This document shows positions 47,544-56,600 of a stretch of DNA of 64,000 nt, piece by piece (within the stretch, counting starts at the first letter, position 1; every line of letters begins with the position of its first letter). The stretch comes from Porpolomopsis calyptriformis (taxonomy: Eukaryota; Basidiomycota; Agaricomycetes; Agaricales; Hygrophoraceae): assembly GCA_951640195.1 (NCBI GenBank), contig OX621166.1, forward strand, positions 1,170,501 through 1,234,500, written 5' to 3'. A model generated the notes under the pieces. It had not been told where the DNA came from. It saw only the letters and a program-made list of their open reading frames with translations, and searched no databases. A program made the position numbers and the translations under genes.

Positions 47544-47913
47544 TGTTATGATTCGGTAGCCGAAGGGTTTTACTTCTCGCGTTGGAGGGGCTGATGAGGA
47601 AATGGAATTCGACTAAAGAGTGGGGGAGCTAACTAGGAATCGAACTTAACCTACTGACTAGAAATCAGGCTTTATATACTAACTACCTGAATCGCCATGA
47701 GTCAGTCGTATGTACGATTACAAAGCGGAATCCGGAATGTGACTAGTGAAGAGTTACAAAAGGAATGTCGGAAACGGAATGTGACTCGTGAAGAGTCGGA
47801 AGGAAGGTACATGTGATCAGTCTCTATGTATAGAATGGTAAAACGGAAGGATAGACGGAACAGAGACTAATCAAGTATGACTAAGAGAAAAAGGAAAAAA
47901 GATGTCCGTGACA
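47544..47913 (-). repeat. E2 3' LTR
   Basis: 370 bp, beginning TGTTATG and ending CCGTGACA on plus. It differs from the 5' LTR by G/A in a CpG (GCCGAAG against GCCAAAG) and T/C (GAGTTAC against GAGTCAC). Confidence 0.95.
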
Positions 47914-47993: not shown

Positions 47994-48572
47994 CTAGATT
48001 GAGTCCTTGTTGGAGGCGATGGTCGACAGGGAAATAATGTCGACCGGGGAAATATCGTCGTCATCGGGGATGGTGATGGGGTTCGACGACGAACCGGGGG
48101 GAACGACGAGTGGACCCGGGAAAACAGGGGGAACTGGAGAATCAAGATGGGGAAGTACCTTCGCGACTTCCTCGTACTTTGCCTCCCAGTATTTGGCCTG
48201 CTCTCGCCAGTACTCACTCCCTCTTCTGTTTCCGTCCAAACTCATTCCTTGGTTGTACAATTCTTCGTTTAGTCTTGCAATCTTGTTCTTGTAGTAATCG
48301 ATATCTTTCTGTAGTGACTCGATGATCTGCTCGGGCGGGATGGGTGGAGCGACGATTTCCTCTGGCCATATGGGAAGGTCTCGATTTCGTGCGCGACGGT
48401 TGTGCTGCCAGAGTTGTCCGGCGAGCTCGGCTTCACCGTAAGCGGAGGAGGTGGAAGCGAGCGGAGGGGGAGCGCGACGAGGGGGTTGCCCTCCAGTGGA
48501 CATGCGAGGAGCGCGGGGCGGACGACCACCAGTAGACTTGCGGGCAGTTTGATGCGAGCGTTCGGCGGGCAT
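47994..48572 (-). CDS. E2 ORF3: histone H3 tail-like N-terminus, coiled coil, acidic tail, 192 aa
   Basis: A complete ORF after pol, in the place of env in retroviruses, 124 bases after the pol stop. Residues 8-16, QTARKSTGG, equal histone H3 residues 5-13, so Lys12 sits at the place of H3 Lys9 and Ser13 at Ser10. RPPR (17-20) mirrors KAPR of H3, and a second imperfect copy, RMSTGGQPPRR, follows at 23-33. After a Pro/Ala linker, residues about 75-140 are helical with heptad Leu/Ile (EQIIESLQKDIDYYKNKIARL, given as location, and YWREQAKYWEAKYEEVAKVL). The C-terminus has an acidic DDDDIS patch. There is no signal peptide or membrane segment, so it is not an env. It must be made from a spliced or internal RNA; no route is visible. 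The H3 match is direct; a role in chromatin is inferred. Confidence 0.85.
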   Translation of the reverse strand: MPAERSHQTARKSTGGRPPRAPRMSTGGQPPRRAPPPLASTSSAYGEAELAGQLWQHNRRARNRDLPIWPEEIVAPPIPPEQIIESLQKDIDYYKNKIARLNEELYNQGMSLDGNRRGSEYWREQAKYWEAKYEEVAKVLPHLDSPVPPVFPGPLVVPPGSSSNPITIPDDDDISPVDIISLSTIASNKDSI

Positions 48573-48696
48573 AGCGAGATTGATTTCTTGAGAATGAAAG
48601 ATGGAGACGAAAGAGATTATAAGGAAGAGTCGGAGTTTGGAAGAGGTGACAAAAGTGAAAATATAAACGAGGGGAGTTGATACCGTGAAAGAGTGA

Positions 48697-51600
48697 TCAG
48701 GTCGCCGTTTGAATTGATTGTTCGTATTCTAGAATTCGTTCTTTCGCATGGAGGAGGTTCTTCTTCGGTTCCCAGGTTGCTTCTTCAATGGGATAGCCGA
48801 CCCATTTGACCAAATACGTACGACGTCGGGTGGACCCGTGATGTTGGAGAATTTGTTCGACCTCATATTCTTCTTTCTCTTGAATGACATCCGGAGGTGG
48901 ACGGAGATTATCATCTACTTCCACTGGGTGGAGATCGGAGTTAATGTTAGCGGGTCTCAGGAGTGAAACGTGAAAGACGTCGTGTATTTTCCATGATAAG
49001 GGGAGGGCCAGGCGATAAGAGACTTTTCCGATCTTTTCTAGAACTTTGAACGGTCCAGTGCGTCGGACATCAAGTTTGAGGGTTGGACGACCTGTTTTTA
49101 AGTTACGAGTATCAAGATAAACAAATTGACCTATTTGGAGTTGGGTATCTTTCCGTTTACGATCTGCGAAGCGTTTCATGGTTTCGGCCGCTGTTTCTAG
49201 AGCTTTTGTGGCTTCTTCACGGGCTTCTGTGAGATGATCGTGGAAGGTATCTGCTGCGGGGTTGGAAGTAGGGGCCGCAGGGACAGATGGGACGAAGGGA
49301 TGTTGGCCAGTATCAAGGTAAAAGGGAGTGTGTTTCGTCGAGGAGTGCTGTCGGTTATTGTAAGCGAATTCAGCTGGGGATAGCCAGTTGGACCAATCGT
49401 CTTGCATAAAGTTTGTGTATAAACGAAGGTATTGTTCGAGTTCTTGATTGGTGCGTTCCATTTGACCATCAGTTTGGGGGTGATAAGCGGTGGATAGACC
49501 GGAGATGATTCCCAAATGAGTGTTGAGAGCTTTCGCAAATTTGGAAGCGAACTGAGTTCCTCGATCGGTTATGATCTTCTTTGGCCAGCCGTGGTGTTTC
49601 CATACATTGTCCCTGAAGAGTTTTGCGACTCCTTCTGCAGAAATATTTGATGTCGTCGGAATAAAGTGAGCGCGTTTGGTAAAGCGGTCGACAATGACTA
49701 AGACAGCATCGTAGCCAGATGATTGGGGGAGTTCCACGATTAGATCGGCGGTGATTTCTTCCCAAGGTCGAGACGAAGGGGGAATGGGTTCCAGGAGACC
49801 TGCAGGCTTCGAAGGATAGAGCTTGACTTGTTGGCAGGTCGGACAGGATGATACGAATACACGGATGTCAGGGGCAGCACTACTCCAGGTGTAGTTCCGC
49901 AACACAAGCTCACGTGTCTTCTCGATTCCGGGATGGCCTCCATGGGGCAGGGAGTGGGTCAATCGAATTATCTCTGTGCGTAGCAATACGTCTGCTGGCA
50001 CAACAATACGATCTCCTGCATCTCTCACAATTCCGTCAGTGAAGGAGTAGCCGGAAGAGGGATCGGATAACTTGATGCGAATGTCCTCTGGGATTTCGTT
50101 GAAGTCGGGGAAGCGAAGTCTTGACATAAAGGAAGGTTCGGACATGGAAATGACAGCATTGATGAAACGTTCGGGGGGGAGGAGGGCTTGGCCTTCTAAT
50201 TCTTCTTTTTCTGTACGACGGTGGTCGGGTCGGCGGGAGAGTCCATCGGCTTTGTTTTTGACTCCAGGGGAATACTCGATTTTGAAGTCGAATCTTCCTA
50301 AGAATTCCATCCAACGTGCTTGTCGTCTGGAGAGGGATCTGTTCTGCATAAAATACTTGAGCGCTAAATTGTCCGTCTTTATCAACACAGTATCCCTTGC
50401 GCCCTCCAAAAGATAACGCCAATATTTGAGGGAAGTGACGATTGCAAGCATCTCCAGATCATGGGTAGGATAGTTGTACTCGGCAGGGAGCAGAGACTTC
50501 GAGAAAAAGCCAACGGGGTGCCAACCGTTGTCGTGTTTCTGAGACAAGACCGCGCCAATACCGAAATCTGAGGCATCAGTTTCCAAGAGGTAAGGAAGGT
50601 TTGGCCGCGGGGTAAGAAGGACAGGGGCTGTAGTGACGAGATGTTTGAGTTGCTCAAAGGCTTTTTGACACAAGGGAGACCAATCCCAAGGTTGGTCTTT
50701 CCGCAAAAGGCCACAGAGGGGACGAACGACTGAGGAGAAACTTTTGATGTAACGACGCCAGAAGTTGGTGGTGCCAAGGAAGGACTGGAGGTCTCGCAGC
50801 TTTTGGGGCGTCGGCCAATTGATGATGGCGTCTACCTTTTTTGGATTGATAGCGAGTTGACCTTTACTGATGATAGTACCAAGGTATGTAACAGAGGTTT
50901 TCTCCATTTGGCATTTGACGGGTTTGGCGGATAGTTGATTCTTCTCCATGAGCTTAAGGGTTTCGTCAGTCCAGTGGCGGATTTCTTCGGGGGTGTCGCC
51001 CATGATGAGAATGTCGTCAATATAAATGTGGACACAGCCAGAGTCCAGAACGGTTTTAAAGAGAACGTCTATCATTCGTTGGAAAGATGCTGGGGAGTTC
51101 CGTAGTCCAAAGAACATAACGGTCGGCTCGAAGAGTCCTCGATTGGTGATGAAAGCTGCTTTCCATTCGTCACCTTCCTTGAGTCGTATGTTGTTAAATC
51201 CCCATCGAATATCGATGACTGTAAAGAGTGAAGCAGTAGCAAGCTTCGGTACTTGGAGGATTTCCGATAGAAGGGGAAGGGGGTAACGATCAGGAATGGT
51301 TTTTGAGTTGATGTAGCGATAGTCCTGGATGGGACGTAGACCAGCACTGAGACCTTTAGCATTGATCTCTTCAGCCTTTTTCGCAAAGAAGAAGGGAGCA
51401 GCCTGCGGTGATTTCGATGGACGTATCCGACCTGTTCTGAGATTTTCGTCGATAAACTTATTAAGTTCTACCTGTTCATAGGGGGAAAGGGGATAGAGTT
51501 TTCCGACTTGAAACTTGGTGTTCGGGTAGAGGTTGATCGCATGATCAAAAGGACGTCGAGGAGGAAGCTTGTCGAATTCTGCGGTATGAAAAACACGCCA

Positions 51601-52266
51601 GAAATTGTGATAACGATTGGGAATAAAGGATTTGATATCCTCCTCGATGGAAACTGGTCGGGAGTGGTCAACTCCGACCAAACGGATAAAGGAGTCATGT
51701 TTCAGACTCGAATCGAAGACGTAGAGTTCTTCCTGTGGGGGCAACACTCCGACTCGCATACTACTGAACAGCGTGTCACCAGACGCAAAGGTTAAGGTGC
51801 CTTTTGTCCAATTGATGGTGGGGTTGTGTCGCAAGAGCCATGGGAAGCCGAGGATGACCTGTTGCTTTTTTCCTAAGTTGGTGACCTCCAACCGGATTCG
51901 TTCTCGAAAGGATAGATCTGGTGCCTCAATAAACAGGTCTGTATCGTGCGTGATGGGACCTCCTCGGTTCTCGGAACCATCAGCGTTTCGTACCGGTATA
52001 ACCTCATCCAACAGATAGGTCGATATCTCCATTTGACGAACGAATGCTTCGTCAATAAAATTCCCTGAGGCGCCAGAGTCAATGAGTGCTATGATAGCCA
52101 CTCGTCGAAGATTGTCGGCACTCGTGATCCAAAGATAGAATTCGAGAGCGCCTTTGCCCTGTTCAAGTGTGCCAAGAAAACGAAAACTTTTCATAGATGG
52201 TGGTACACATACATGGGACACAGCCAAAGTGCTCGGGCTTTTAGCACTTGGCCGGACTAAAAATCC
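48697..52266 (-). CDS. pol: E2 pol: protease, RT, RNase H, integrase, chromodomain
   Basis: It is read after a -1 frameshift from gag and gives about 1190 codons with no stop. Order: aspartic protease (ALIDSGASGNFIDEAF), RT with LRPIQDYRYIN, FTVIDIRWGFNNIRL, FFGLRNSPASFQRMI and the catalytic YIDD, RNase H (LETDASDFGIGAVLSQ, with DNLALKYF downstream), integrase zinc finger (HPGIEKTRELVLRN then CPTCQQ), the catalytic Asp in TADLIVELP, DRGTQF and the Glu in HPQTDGQMERTNQELEQYL. The end is a chromodomain, EYEVEQIL, YLVKWVGYPIEEATWEPKKNL. Its three aromatic cage residues (Tyr, Trp, Tyr) are kept, so binding of methylated lysine is plausible, as shown for the MAGGY chromodomain. Confidence 0.96.
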   Translation of the reverse strand, partial: GFLVRPSAKSPSTLAVSHVCVPPSMKSFRFLGTLEQGKGALEFYLWITSADNLRRVAIIALIDSGASGNFIDEAFVRQMEISTYLLDEVIPVRNADGSENRGGPITHDTDLFIEAPDLSFRERIRLEVTNLGKKQQVILGFPWLLRHNPTINWTKGTLTFASGDTLFSSMRVGVLPPQEELYVFDSSLKHDSFIRLVGVDHSRPVSIEEDIKSFIPNRYHNFWRVFHTAEFDKLPPRRPFDHAINLYPNTKFQVGKLYPLSPYEQVELNKFIDENLRTGRIRPSKSPQAAPFFFAKKAEEINAKGLSAGLRPIQDYRYINSKTIPDRYPLPLLSEILQVPKLATASLFTVIDIRWGFNNIRLKEGDEWKAAFITNRGLFEPTVMFFGLRNSPASFQRMIDVLFKTVLDSGCVHIYIDDILIMGDTPEEIRHWTDETLKLMEKNQLSAKPVKCQMEKTSVTYLGTIISKGQLAINPKKVDAIINWPTPQKLRDLQSFLGTTNFWRRYIKSFSSVVRPLCGLLRKDQPWDWSPLCQKAFEQLKHLVTTAPVLLTPRPNLPYLLETDASDFGIGAVLSQKHDNGWHPVGFFSKSLLPAEYNYPTHDLEMLAIVTSLKYWRYLLEGARDTVLIKTDNLALKYFMQNRSLSRRQARWMEFLGRFDFKIEYSPGVKNKADGLSRRPDHRRTEKEELEGQALLPPERFINAVISMSEPSFMSRLRFPDFNEIPEDIRIKLSDPSSGYSFTDGIVRDAGDRIVVPADVLLRTEIIRLTHSLPHGGHPGIEKTRELVLRNYTWSSAAPDIRVFVSSCPTCQQVKLYPSKPAGLLEPIPPSSRPWEEITADLIVELPQSSGYDAVLVIVDRFTKRAHFIPTTSNISAEGVAKLFRDNVWKHHGWPKKIITDRGTQFASKFAKALNTHLGIISGLSTAYHPQTDGQMERTNQELEQYLRLYTNFMQDDWSNWLSPAEFAYNNRQHSSTKHTPFYLDTGQHPFVPSVPAAPTSNPAADTFHDHLTEAREEATKALETAAETMKRFADRKRKDTQLQIGQFVYLDTRNLKTGRPTLKLDVRRTGPFKVLEKIGKVSYRLALPLSWKIHDVFHVSLLRPANINSDLHPVEVDDNLRPPPDVIQEKEEYEVEQILQHHGSTRRRTYLVKWVGYPIEEATWEPKKNLLHAKERILEYEQSIQTAT

Positions 52267-53681
52267 TTTTGCTCTTTTAACGCTCGAGCTAGCGCAGCCC
52301 GTCTCTCCTTGTTCCAATTTGCGATTCCCATATCCTTCAAGTCGTCCTTTGCCATCCTTTTTTCCTTTTCGTCGTCCTCTGGTACCTCCTCTATCCGCGC
52401 TTCCAATTCTTCTGTATCGACCCGATTGATCGTTCGGACATTCCGTCCTTTGCCTTGACCGCGATTTCCTCCTTTTCCTCGAGTAGAGTTTGAGGATTCT
52501 TGACGTGCCGGAACGTCTTCAGCACGTGGACTTCGACATTCGTTGGCATAGTGTCCCTTTTTGCCACAATTGTAGCAAGTGATGGAGGAGTTGTCTCGTT
52601 TCGCTGTCTTGAGAGAGGCTTCTCTCGATTCTTGTTTAATCGGGGATGAAGTGGTGGTGGTGGTGATGGAGCGGGAAGGGTTTCCTCGTGGACTCGATTT
52701 GGTTTCAGACTTCTTTCCTTTTTGATCTCGACTTGACCACAATGCTTGTTCGGCTCGTTGTTCCTGGTACTGTTCTTCGAACTGGGCCGCTTTCGTCGTC
52801 CAGTCCAGCAAAGTCGACGGCATATTGTCCATCGAGTAGATCCGCGTTCGGATCGGCTGGGGGAGTCCGGCTTTGTAAAACCGAAGTAGAGCAGTCTCGT
52901 TGTACTCAGTTCTTGCTGCGTGTTGCATGAACCGAAGGTTGTAGTCTTCTATCGTTCCTGTCATCTTCACTTTCTCTAGCTCGATCTGCGCCTTCGCCGC
53001 TGGGTTGATCCTTCCGAAAGCTTCCCTGAAATCGTCCAAAAATGTTGCATAGTCCCATACGAAATTCCTCGTCCTGTCAACTCCTTCTGTGAACAGTCGT
53101 CCCCAGGCCCGTGGATTGCCGTCACCGAGGTAGGAGAGCATATAGATGATCTTCTGTTTATCGTTGTAGTCTTTGACCACAAAGTTGAGTCGACATTGAT
53201 GAATGAAGTCTTCAAGCTTCTCGGAGGTTCCATCATACTCGGTCGGATCGGCGATTTTGATTTTGGTGGGGGCTGGAAGTGTGGGGGGGGCAGTCGTCTG
53301 GGTGGGTAGTTGAGTGGGAAAGGTTGGTTGGGATGGAGGTTGGACGGATTGGGTTCTTCTTGTGGGATAAACGAAAGGATTCGAGGGGGAAAGTCCAGGT
53401 CCCCGAAGCACAGATCGTCGTCGTGGGGGAGGGGTGGCTGGTTCAGATTCTTCGCGTCGACTTTCTTTGAGAGCTTTCAGCTCCTTTCGGAGCTCTTCAT
53501 TGACGTCGACTTCGCTGTAGTACCAACCGCGGAACTGGTCGATTTGTGCTCTTAAATCTCTGAGCTCTTGTTCCATGTTAAATGGGACGACGTCTTCTTC
53601 TTCTTCTTGAATGGTAGGGGGGATGTTACTGGGTCCTGGTGCGGGAACGGATTGATCGGCTTCGTACTCTTGTTGAGACAT
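52257..53681 (-). CDS. gag: E2 gag, 474 aa
   Basis: A complete Gag beginning MSQQEYEADQSVPAPG. A coiled-coil region (LRDLRAQIDQFRGWYYSEVD) comes first, then Pro/Thr-rich sequence. The gag capsid-like domain follows (ADPTEYDGTSEKLEDFIHQCRL onward), and one CCHC knuckle, CYNCGKKGHYANEC. It ends in a basic/acidic region and a helix, ending ALKEQKDF-stop. Gag forms the particle and packs the RNA. The stop codon TAG overlaps the frameshift region into pol. Confidence 0.95.
   Translation of the reverse strand: MSQQEYEADQSVPAPGPSNIPPTIQEEEEDVVPFNMEQELRDLRAQIDQFRGWYYSEVDVNEELRKELKALKESRREESEPATPPPRRRSVLRGPGLSPSNPFVYPTRRTQSVQPPSQPTFPTQLPTQTTAPPTLPAPTKIKIADPTEYDGTSEKLEDFIHQCRLNFVVKDYNDKQKIIYMLSYLGDGNPRAWGRLFTEGVDRTRNFVWDYATFLDDFREAFGRINPAAKAQIELEKVKMTGTIEDYNLRFMQHAARTEYNETALLRFYKAGLPQPIRTRIYSMDNMPSTLLDWTTKAAQFEEQYQEQRAEQALWSSRDQKGKKSETKSSPRGNPSRSITTTTTSSPIKQESREASLKTAKRDNSSITCYNCGKKGHYANECRSPRAEDVPARQESSNSTRGKGGNRGQGKGRNVRTINRVDTEELEARIEEVPEDDEKEKRMAKDDLKDMGIANWNKERRAALARALKEQKDF
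52260..52266 (-). other. E2 gag-pol -1 frameshift heptamer GGATTTT
   Basis: gag reads AAG GAT TTT TAG, giving G GAT TTT before the stop, with pol open in the -1 frame. It is like the GGAUUUA site of MMTV pro-pol. E1 and E3 have GGGTTTT at the same place. Confidence 0.6.
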
Positions 53682-53856: not shown

Positions 53857-54226
53857 TGTTATGATTCGGTAGCCAAAGGGTTTTACTTCTCGCGTTGGAG
53901 GGGCTGATGAGGAAATGGAATTCGACTAAAGAGTGGGGGAGCTAACTAGGAATCGAACTTAACCTACTGACTAGAAATCAGGCTTTATATACTAACTACC
54001 TGAATCGCCATGAGTCAGTCGTATGTACGATTACAAAGCGGAATCCGGAATGTGACTAGTGAAGAGTCACAAAAGGAATGTCGGAAACGGAATGTGACTC
54101 GTGAAGAGTCGGAAGGAAGGTACATGTGATCAGTCTCTATGTATAGAATGGTAAAACGGAAGGATAGACGGAACAGAGACTAATCAAGTATGACTAAGAG
54201 AAAAAGGAAAAAAGATGTCCGTGACA
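53857..54226 (-). repeat. E2 5' LTR
   Basis: 370 bp. Contains the promoter TATA box (53983-53991) and the self-primer copy (53950-53960). Followed by GTCAG (54227-54231). Confidence 0.95.
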
Positions 54227-55801: not shown

Positions 55802-56600
55802 CTAGGTATGCTTTTCCTCAACTCTCCAGTAGATATCACCTTCTCTAACCACACATCCAGAAGGGAGGCGTAAGGAATACTGTTCGTTCGGGAACAGCAT
55901 CCGGTCCCTAGGTCGCGCCATCATAAACTGGGGGTTGAAGTAGGTGTCCATCTGGGTCAAACCAGTGGTAACAGCCATCCAACTCCCGGGCACGTCGCAA
56001 CCAAGTTTCAGCCAGCTCCCTACACATCACAGCATTCTCCTCCAGATCAAGGATCCTTTCGTACTTGGCATCCATCATCGAGCGGTACCCGTTTCAGGCA
56101 GCATAGAGTTGGTTGGCAACGCGATGGATGCGGTGCGAGATGGGGTCTTCAGGGATAGTGGGGGTGGTGACGTTGGATTCGTCCTAGTCCAGTATAACCA
56201 TCAAAAGTTGGCGCCCAACTTGGTACACCTCCAGCCAATCTTTGAGTTGATTCTTCTTGTCATCAAAGTCGCTGTCCTTGTCGAACGTGTACCAGTGACG
56301 GTCGTAGTTGAGTTCGCATCGACGTGCTCCAGAGATAAAAGGGATGTAGGTTTCGGGGCACCCAGATAGGTGCTCGACCTTGGCAAAGGGGAGCCCTCGG
56401 TAGTTACGATTTCATCCCAGCTTGTCAATAGTATCGGTGCATCGCTTCGGCTTCTTGAACCGTCGGGTAACCAAGACACTGTCAGATGAGGAAGAGGAGG
56501 AAGAAGAATCGGGGGGAAGGTTGGAGGTAGAAGCAGTGGGGTTCCCTCGAGGTGGACGCCTCCCAGTCGACTTGCGAGCATAAAGAACTTGGCGGGGCAT
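55802..56600 (-). pseudogene. E3 ORF3: H3 tail-like start, broken
   Basis: The start codon at 56598-56600 opens a frame with ARKSTGRRPPRG at residues 8-19, the same core (ARKSTG-x-RPPR) as E2 ORF3 and close to histone H3 residues 7-17. A Ser-rich stretch follows and the frame stops at 56412. Remaining similarity to E2 continues in other frames: an EIVTTEGSPLP segment, then a helix-forming SMMDAKYERILDLEEN and ARELDGCYHWFDPDGHLL near 55940-56080, with at least one TGA between. So the gene has been inactivated by frameshifts and a stop. It lies 114 bases after the pol stop, as in E2. Confidence 0.75.

Follow-up and report, generated by a model that had tools for sequence, protein, structure and literature searches.

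The locus examined here raises a specific question: why does the third open reading frame (ORF3) of a retrotransposon begin like the tail of histone H3? The frame belongs to E2, one of the elements in the 64,000-nucleotide stretch of Porpolomopsis calyptriformis DNA that we refer to as the window. E2 is a young chromovirus. Its two 370-bp LTRs differ from each other at 2 positions, with GTCAG as the target-site duplication (TSD), and its pol product has Pfam matches to protease, RT, RNase H, integrase zinc-binding, rve and Chromo. ORF3 matches no Pfam family over its cut-off. The features of E2 and of the neighbouring chromovirus E3 that matter here are the following.

47544..47913, no strand: 3' LTR of E2, 370 bp, TSD GTCAG
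47994..48572, minus: ORF3 of E2, 192 aa (ORF reading)
48144..48227, minus: predicted helix of ORF3, residues 116-143 (single-sequence model)
48246..48335, minus: predicted helix of ORF3, residues 80-109, part homologous to the ORF of element E4 (single-sequence model, mean pLDDT 59)
48474..48512, minus: second imperfect copy of the H3-like motif, APRMSTGGQPPRR, codons 21-33, Met at the Lys9 place
48513..48524, minus: RPPR, codons 17-20 (KAPR in H3), accompanying ARKSTG in E2 and E3
48525..48551, minus: QTARKSTGG, codons 8-16, equal to H3 5-13; Lys12 codon at 48537-48539
48697..52194, minus: pol of E2, with protease, RT, RNase H, integrase and chromodomain (ORF reading and Pfam)
48718..48867, minus: integrase chromodomain of E2, pol residues 1110-1159 (Pfam and alignment)
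52257..53681, minus: gag of E2 with CCHC knuckle (sequence reading)
53857..54226, no strand: 5' LTR of E2, 370 bp
55908..56600, minus: ORF3 of E3, starting MPRQVLYARKSTGRRPPRG, with 3 in-frame stops in the window copy
56562..56579, minus: ARKSTG of E3 ORF3, codons 8-13

The ORF3 product of E2 starts with MPAERSHQTARKSTGGRPPRAPRMSTGGQPPRR. Counting from M1 to R20, the lead MPAERSH is followed by QTARKSTGG (Q8, K12 and G16 in this numbering) and then by RPPR. The original prediction was that this N-terminus copies H3 residues 5-13, and the identity is exact over all nine residues, with Lys12 aligned to H3 Lys9. The substitution of RPPR for the KAPR of H3 and the presence of a second, imperfect copy were likewise borne out; the minus-strand orientation and the Met that this second copy carries in place of Lys9 were absent from the earlier description. 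E2 ORF3 contains an ARKS/T core with H3-like flanks, as expected of an H3K9 mimic. A Pfam search at E<=1 found no Histone family in it. When ORF3 was compared with the PDB by phmmer, the top rows among the best 60 of 126 (E<=10) were Cse4 and H3 tails, weakly matched at E 0.076-0.25, and the first chain not of H3 type came at E 0.43.

Shuffling the first 40 residues 200,000 times and the whole ORF3 40,000 times never gave a nine-residue match to H3; the longest matches were of seven residues (7 of 200,000 and 3 of 40,000, respectively). A degenerate DNA pattern for QTARKSTGG has 70 occurrences in the 33.5-Mb genome, host H3 genes accounting for three of them, and none in its reversed form. The shorter ARKSTG pattern occurs at 125 places, compared with 14 when reversed, and among the matches listed at least about 40 have E3-type codons. 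On splice-site reading, the G13 codon seems to be interrupted by a common intron in all three host H3 genes, and in one of them (L060:313-340) an apparent 25-nt exon spans Q5 up to and including the first G13 base, which is the span of the identity.

We assessed selection on the tail in the copies of E2 found elsewhere in the genome. The genome search behind this sample gave 128 rows: 110 are E2-type, and the other 18, at about 34% identity or lower, are E4-type. Our 91 E2 copies, made up of 30 loci including the window copy (L001), 60 further copies and L052, cover 92 of the 110 E2-type rows; the 18 rows left out are pieces or decayed places. Sixty of the 91 lack an in-frame stop. Identical copies were counted once in the trees, which hold 58 of the 60 stop-free E2 copies, 89 of all 91 E2 copies and all 22 copies of E3. 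In the stop-free E2 copies Q8, T9, A10, K12, S13 and T14 are invariant (60/60), and G16 is kept in 59, G15 in 57 and R11 in 53, all seven losses of R11 being CpG-type changes of CGC to CAC or TGC. Silent variation is common in the motif codons of these copies (AAG/AAA 44/16, ACT/ACC 45/15, GCT/GCC 37/23). Across all 91 copies, exact QTARKSTGG is found in 66 and QTARKSTGGRPPR in 42.

On the stop-free E2 tree, the ratio of amino-acid to silent changes (N:S) in codons 8-20 is 2:18 on internal branches, whereas terminal branches give 29:24 (Fisher p=0.0005), and in codons 36-190 it is 103:210 versus 315:325 (p=2e-6). Because CpG decay inflates arginine losses, we recounted with CpG changes removed. 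The internal branches then give 73:147 for codons 36-190 (P=4e-29), which indicates that ORF3 overall is under selection, and 0:13 for codons 8-20 (P=3.1e-6 under neutrality, at an expectation of 62% amino-acid changes), so that the tail has not one non-CpG amino-acid change on these branches. For the first copy of the motif in E2 this rejects neutral evolution, which the original prediction had named as speaking against it, and the E2 tail appears to be under strong purifying selection. For codons 8-16 alone, CpG changes included, the internal-terminal comparison is not significant (1:11 versus 9:22, p=0.24). Without CpG changes, the terminal branches of the stop-free copies also look constrained in codons 8-20 (3:12), as expected of young copies. 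The tree of all E2 copies has 13 internal amino-acid changes in codons 8-20 by codon count, mostly of CpG type (9 CpG and 1 not, by nucleotide count). In a divergent E2 subfamily (L052, L104, L105, L108 and L109) QTARKST is kept in all five copies and both glycines in four, and the second copy is degraded. Among the E2 and E3 ORF3 copies together (L001-L030, L061-L120, L124-L144), many terminal changes are from CpG to TpG or CpA, as expected if these repeats are CpG-methylated.

The second copy behaves differently from the first. Its Met at the Lys9 place is present in 60/60 stop-free E2 copies, and Arg and His each occupy its Arg8 equivalent in 30 of them. Codons 21-33 have an N:S of 16:9 on internal branches versus 31:7 on terminal ones (p=0.15), and 7:9 internally without CpG changes (P=0.023), which suggests that this copy is weakly constrained. 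No Met-bearing copy was seen in the 22 E3 ORF3 copies read. For these two reasons, a K9M-like trap was set aside as the main claim.

The ORF3 of E3 provides a second family with the tail. It starts MPR(E/Q)V(R/L)YARKSTGRRPPRG, its N-terminal motif reading YARKSTG-R-RPPR; compared with H3, Q5-T6 are missing and Arg stands at the G13 place. Our E3 sample consists of 22 of the 113 chromodomain rows at >=77% identity, mostly picked from the best and traced to ORF3, from a search in which 150 of 835 candidates were scored. Seven of these 22, L125 included, have an ORF3 that stays open over 230 aa. Exact ARKSTG is present in 16/22 copies and in three of the seven stop-free ones, the other four having Cys for Arg through a CpG-type change. 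Across the 22 copies, codons 8-18 give 0:4 on internal branches versus 14:0 on terminal ones (p=3.3e-4), and CpG-type changes account for 13 of the 14 terminal losses. Without CpG changes the internal count is still 0:4 (P=0.028) and the terminal count falls to 1:0, so the contrast between the branch classes is mostly CpG decay. E3 thus lends thin support to maintenance of the tail.

The pol proteins of E2 and E3 are 66% identical over 584 aa, and the ORF3 proteins have the tail in common but bodies that do not align. The best ORF3 alignment, with an hhalign probability of 30, lies around ARKSTGxRPPR and the low-complexity residues that follow; blastp, for one pair and without composition correction, gives 36% identity over E2 residues 10-67 at E 7.5e-5, and in the same comparison no stretch outside the tail region fell below E 1. 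Because the tail codons are alike in the two families, a common origin of the tail is likely, and E3 therefore tests its maintenance rather than its independent invention.

Two further families have an ORF3-like frame that starts in another way. E1, the third chromovirus and the first element of the window (loci L121-L123 and L162-L169), has an ORF3 that begins MPATRS...PSPQVAIRR(S/A)G(R/Q)IPSS where the start is readable, and ARKS is absent from it, including in the open copies L122, L123, L162-L165 and L169. Against E2 ORF3 it scores much as the E3 protein does (blastp without composition correction, 24% over E2 residues 1-135, E 6.2e-5), and the E1 and E2 proteins may form one family whose members occur with or without the H3 motif. 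Pairwise identities in the integrase core are 79.0% for E1-E2, 75.5% for E2-E3 and 72.0% for E1-E3, and in RT-RNase H 65.5% for E2-E3, 59.4% for E1-E2 and 58.4% for E1-E3. E4 (L052-L057), a gypsy-like element of which we read six places among the 18 E4-type rows, has an ORF that shares the helical or coiled-coil region of E2 ORF3 (hhalign probability 96; blastp 33%) and starts MSTPYSAEAQ, without ARKS; its 450-aa integrase frame in L053 gave no chromodomain match. The tail is therefore found in two of the four families read, E2 and E3, both with chromodomain integrases, and one chromodomain family, E1, is without it. Intact ORF3 frames without ARKS in related elements had been named in advance as evidence against a role for the motif, and the outcome is divided: E1 and E4 have such frames, and E2 and E3 carry the motif. 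The motif is thus no general need of chromodomain elements.

What the tail might encounter was approached through the integrase, a structural model and the host genome. As originally proposed, the E2 integrase has a C-terminal chromodomain (Pfam Chromo, E 6.6e-13) with its aromatic cage kept: aligned with solved HP1 chromodomains, it retains Tyr, Trp and Tyr at what we take to be the cage positions, as do the chromodomains of E1 and E3. Chromodomains contact H3 at Q5-T6, and E2 ORF3 retains these two residues as well. Single-sequence modelling of the chromodomain was poor (pLDDT 53). The model of ORF3 has, besides the two helices listed above, a helix at residues 46-60 and, at low confidence, no predicted secondary structure in residues 1-45; the E2 tail is probably exposed. 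At least one Pre-SET locus of KMT1 type is present in the host genome. The examined part of that gene revealed no SET domain, and a chromoshadow profile did not find a host HP1, a profile miss that does not show absence. A study of SUV39H2 reports that the enzyme reads R8, S10, T11 and G12 accurately and that T6, A7, G13 and K14 are also important (PMC8303541). Of the residues named there, E2 keeps all but K14, and the A-R-K-S-T-G core (A7-G12) shared by E2 and E3 contains the four read most closely (PMC8303541).

These findings suggest that the element imitates the host's silencing mark. We favour the view that the E2 and E3 tail is a selected mimic of the H3 Lys9 region, to which, taking all forms of its reading together, we give slightly less than even confidence. 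ORF3 would be an accessory protein of E2 and E3 that presents an exposed N-terminal tail on a body which, in E2, is mostly helical; Lys12 would be methylated by a host enzyme of the KMT1/Clr4 type, and the methylated tail then bound by a chromodomain. Methylation and chromodomain reading appear to be the most likely role because the core read by SUV39H2 and Q5-T6 are kept and the host has a Pre-SET locus. Our first choice of reader is the element's own integrase chromodomain, since both partners would then come from one element and element-level amounts would suffice; the tail would hold or occupy the integrase before chromatin H3K9me does. In its most complete form, which we consider unlikely as a whole, ORF3 would be a self-supplied address label, a host-methylated H3K9 mimic on a coiled-coil scaffold, read by the integrase chromodomain of the same element, with methylation switching the integrase between particle and heterochromatin, and the E2 Met copy might also trap the enzyme. 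The model first put forward for this locus is supported in part, in its N-terminal H3K9-like motif, its cage-bearing chromodomain and purifying selection (in E2, and more thinly in E3). Several observations count against mimicry, the thinner E3 record among them. E1 combines a cage-bearing chromodomain and an open ORF3 with no ARKS, E4 lacks ARKS although it has the E2 coiled coil, and RPPR, which is not an H3 sequence, is conserved alongside the motif.

The latter observation, that RPPR accompanies ARKSTG in both E2 and E3, makes a basic arm the main rival. ARKSTGxRPPR would bind DNA or RNA, in the manner of an AT-hook-like GRPPR, or importin; Lys12 would be unmethylated, and the likeness to H3 would reflect a shared use as a flexible basic arm. 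E1 fits this explanation in that its ORF3 has another arginine-rich basic start (RRSGRIPSS) without ARKS. However, charge alone would not require nine residues in the order of H3, the Thr, Ala, Ser, Thr and Gln of the motif are as invariant as its lysine in the 60 stop-free E2 copies, and Pfam at E<=1 gives no AT_hook match in ORF3. We regard a basic arm as somewhat unlikely, and as deserving most weight among the alternatives.

Second among the forms of the mimic reading we place a decoy role, directed at host KMT1 or HP1-type proteins. ORF3 tails, methylated or not, would occupy these factors and weaken H3K9 silencing. The shared core would suit such a role in containing what SUV39H2 reads most (PMC8303541), and so would the Met of the second E2 copy, H3K9M being described, in a fission yeast study, as trapping Clr4 (PMC5030085). 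However, this Met copy is weakly constrained, evenly split between Arg and His at its Arg8 equivalent and not seen in E3, and titration of chromatin factors would presumably need much protein. We consider a decoy decidedly unlikely.

Capture from H3 is a possible origin of the tail, and the tail might be a relic of such capture with no function of its own, an H3 fragment joined to ORF3 whose decay is still to come. In one of the three host H3 genes, exon 2 (C2:3412913; splice-site reading) covers Q5-G13 and nothing else, and the codons of E2 and host H3 are alike over QTARKSTGG, although this may reflect shared codon preference. A relic is nevertheless very improbable, because codons 8-20 have accumulated many silent and zero non-CpG amino-acid changes on the internal branches of stop-free copies and because the tail is common to E2 and E3 despite their diverged pols. 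Chance likeness in a low-complexity N-terminus, rich as that region is in R, K, S, T, G and P, is scarcely credible, given that 240,000 shuffles produced no match of eight or more residues and that the motif recurs at the same place in E3.

Returning to the preferred reading of an H3K9-tail mimic, we compared it with known systems. Histone mimics have been described in both viruses and host proteins. Influenza NS1, a viral histone mimic, resembles E2 ORF3 in being a parasite-encoded protein with an H3-tail-like terminus, but its likeness is to H3K4, at the C-terminus and in an RNA virus, whereas that of E2 ORF3 is to H3K9, at the N-terminus and in a retrotransposon. The mimicry of EZHIP concerns K27M. 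This PRC2 inhibitor, called an oncohistone mimic in PMC12713659, occurs naturally and mimics an H3 peptide in which Met replaces Lys, as the second E2 copy might; however, it is a mammalian host protein acting on PRC2, and the E2 Met copy is weakly constrained. According to PMC10611923, H3K9-mimetic motifs in the host proteins WIZ, CDYL and ACINUS are methylated by EHMT, with HP1-type readers proposed. They share with E2 the H3K9-like core (ARKS in histones), whereas E2 is a selfish element with nine H3 residues, which lie close to the protein's N-terminus as they do in H3 itself. Chromoviruses of the Ty3/gypsy type, such as MAGGY and the Tcn1 group, have, like E2, LTRs, gag, a chromodomain pol and additional ORFs; a figure legend in PMC2864245 gives these ORFs as of unknown function, and the same source describes chromodomains as targeting integration by recognising histone modifications. 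The H3-like tail on an additional ORF is the feature of E2 and E3 for which searches of open-licence papers yielded no description, and among the papers listed none was seen to describe an H3-tail mimic in a retrotransposon. A selected H3K9 mimic beside a chromodomain integrase would tie mark, writer and reader into one element, and the use or escape of H3K9 methylation by chromodomain elements would become testable with peptides of 20-30 residues.

Searches beyond this genome returned no relative of ORF3 in IMG/VR (six stretches fitted a pattern and none was confirmed) and no IMG/VR match to an ARKSTGxxRPPR-type DNA pattern. The same type of pattern occurs at 14 places in prokaryote genomes, none at an ORF start and several broken by stops, and we took these as chance.

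Upstream of the ORF3 ATG, at window positions 48573-48700, lies a pyrimidine-rich (CT-rich) leader with CAAG, preceded by a TATA-like stretch; together these could possibly serve ORF3 as an internal promoter or splice acceptor. In the E4 places (L053:1-3001, and also L052 and L054-L057), the integrase frame is followed by the E2-ORF3-related ORF and then by an open frame with MQSSTSLASIPESNY. In L052:2185-4548 an E2-like ORF3 has an E4 ORF about 1 kb downstream, and by coordinates the same pairing occurs near C4:418-420 kb, C5:731-733 kb, C9:1163-1165 kb and C11:520-522 kb, which suggests a composite or nested element that amplified.
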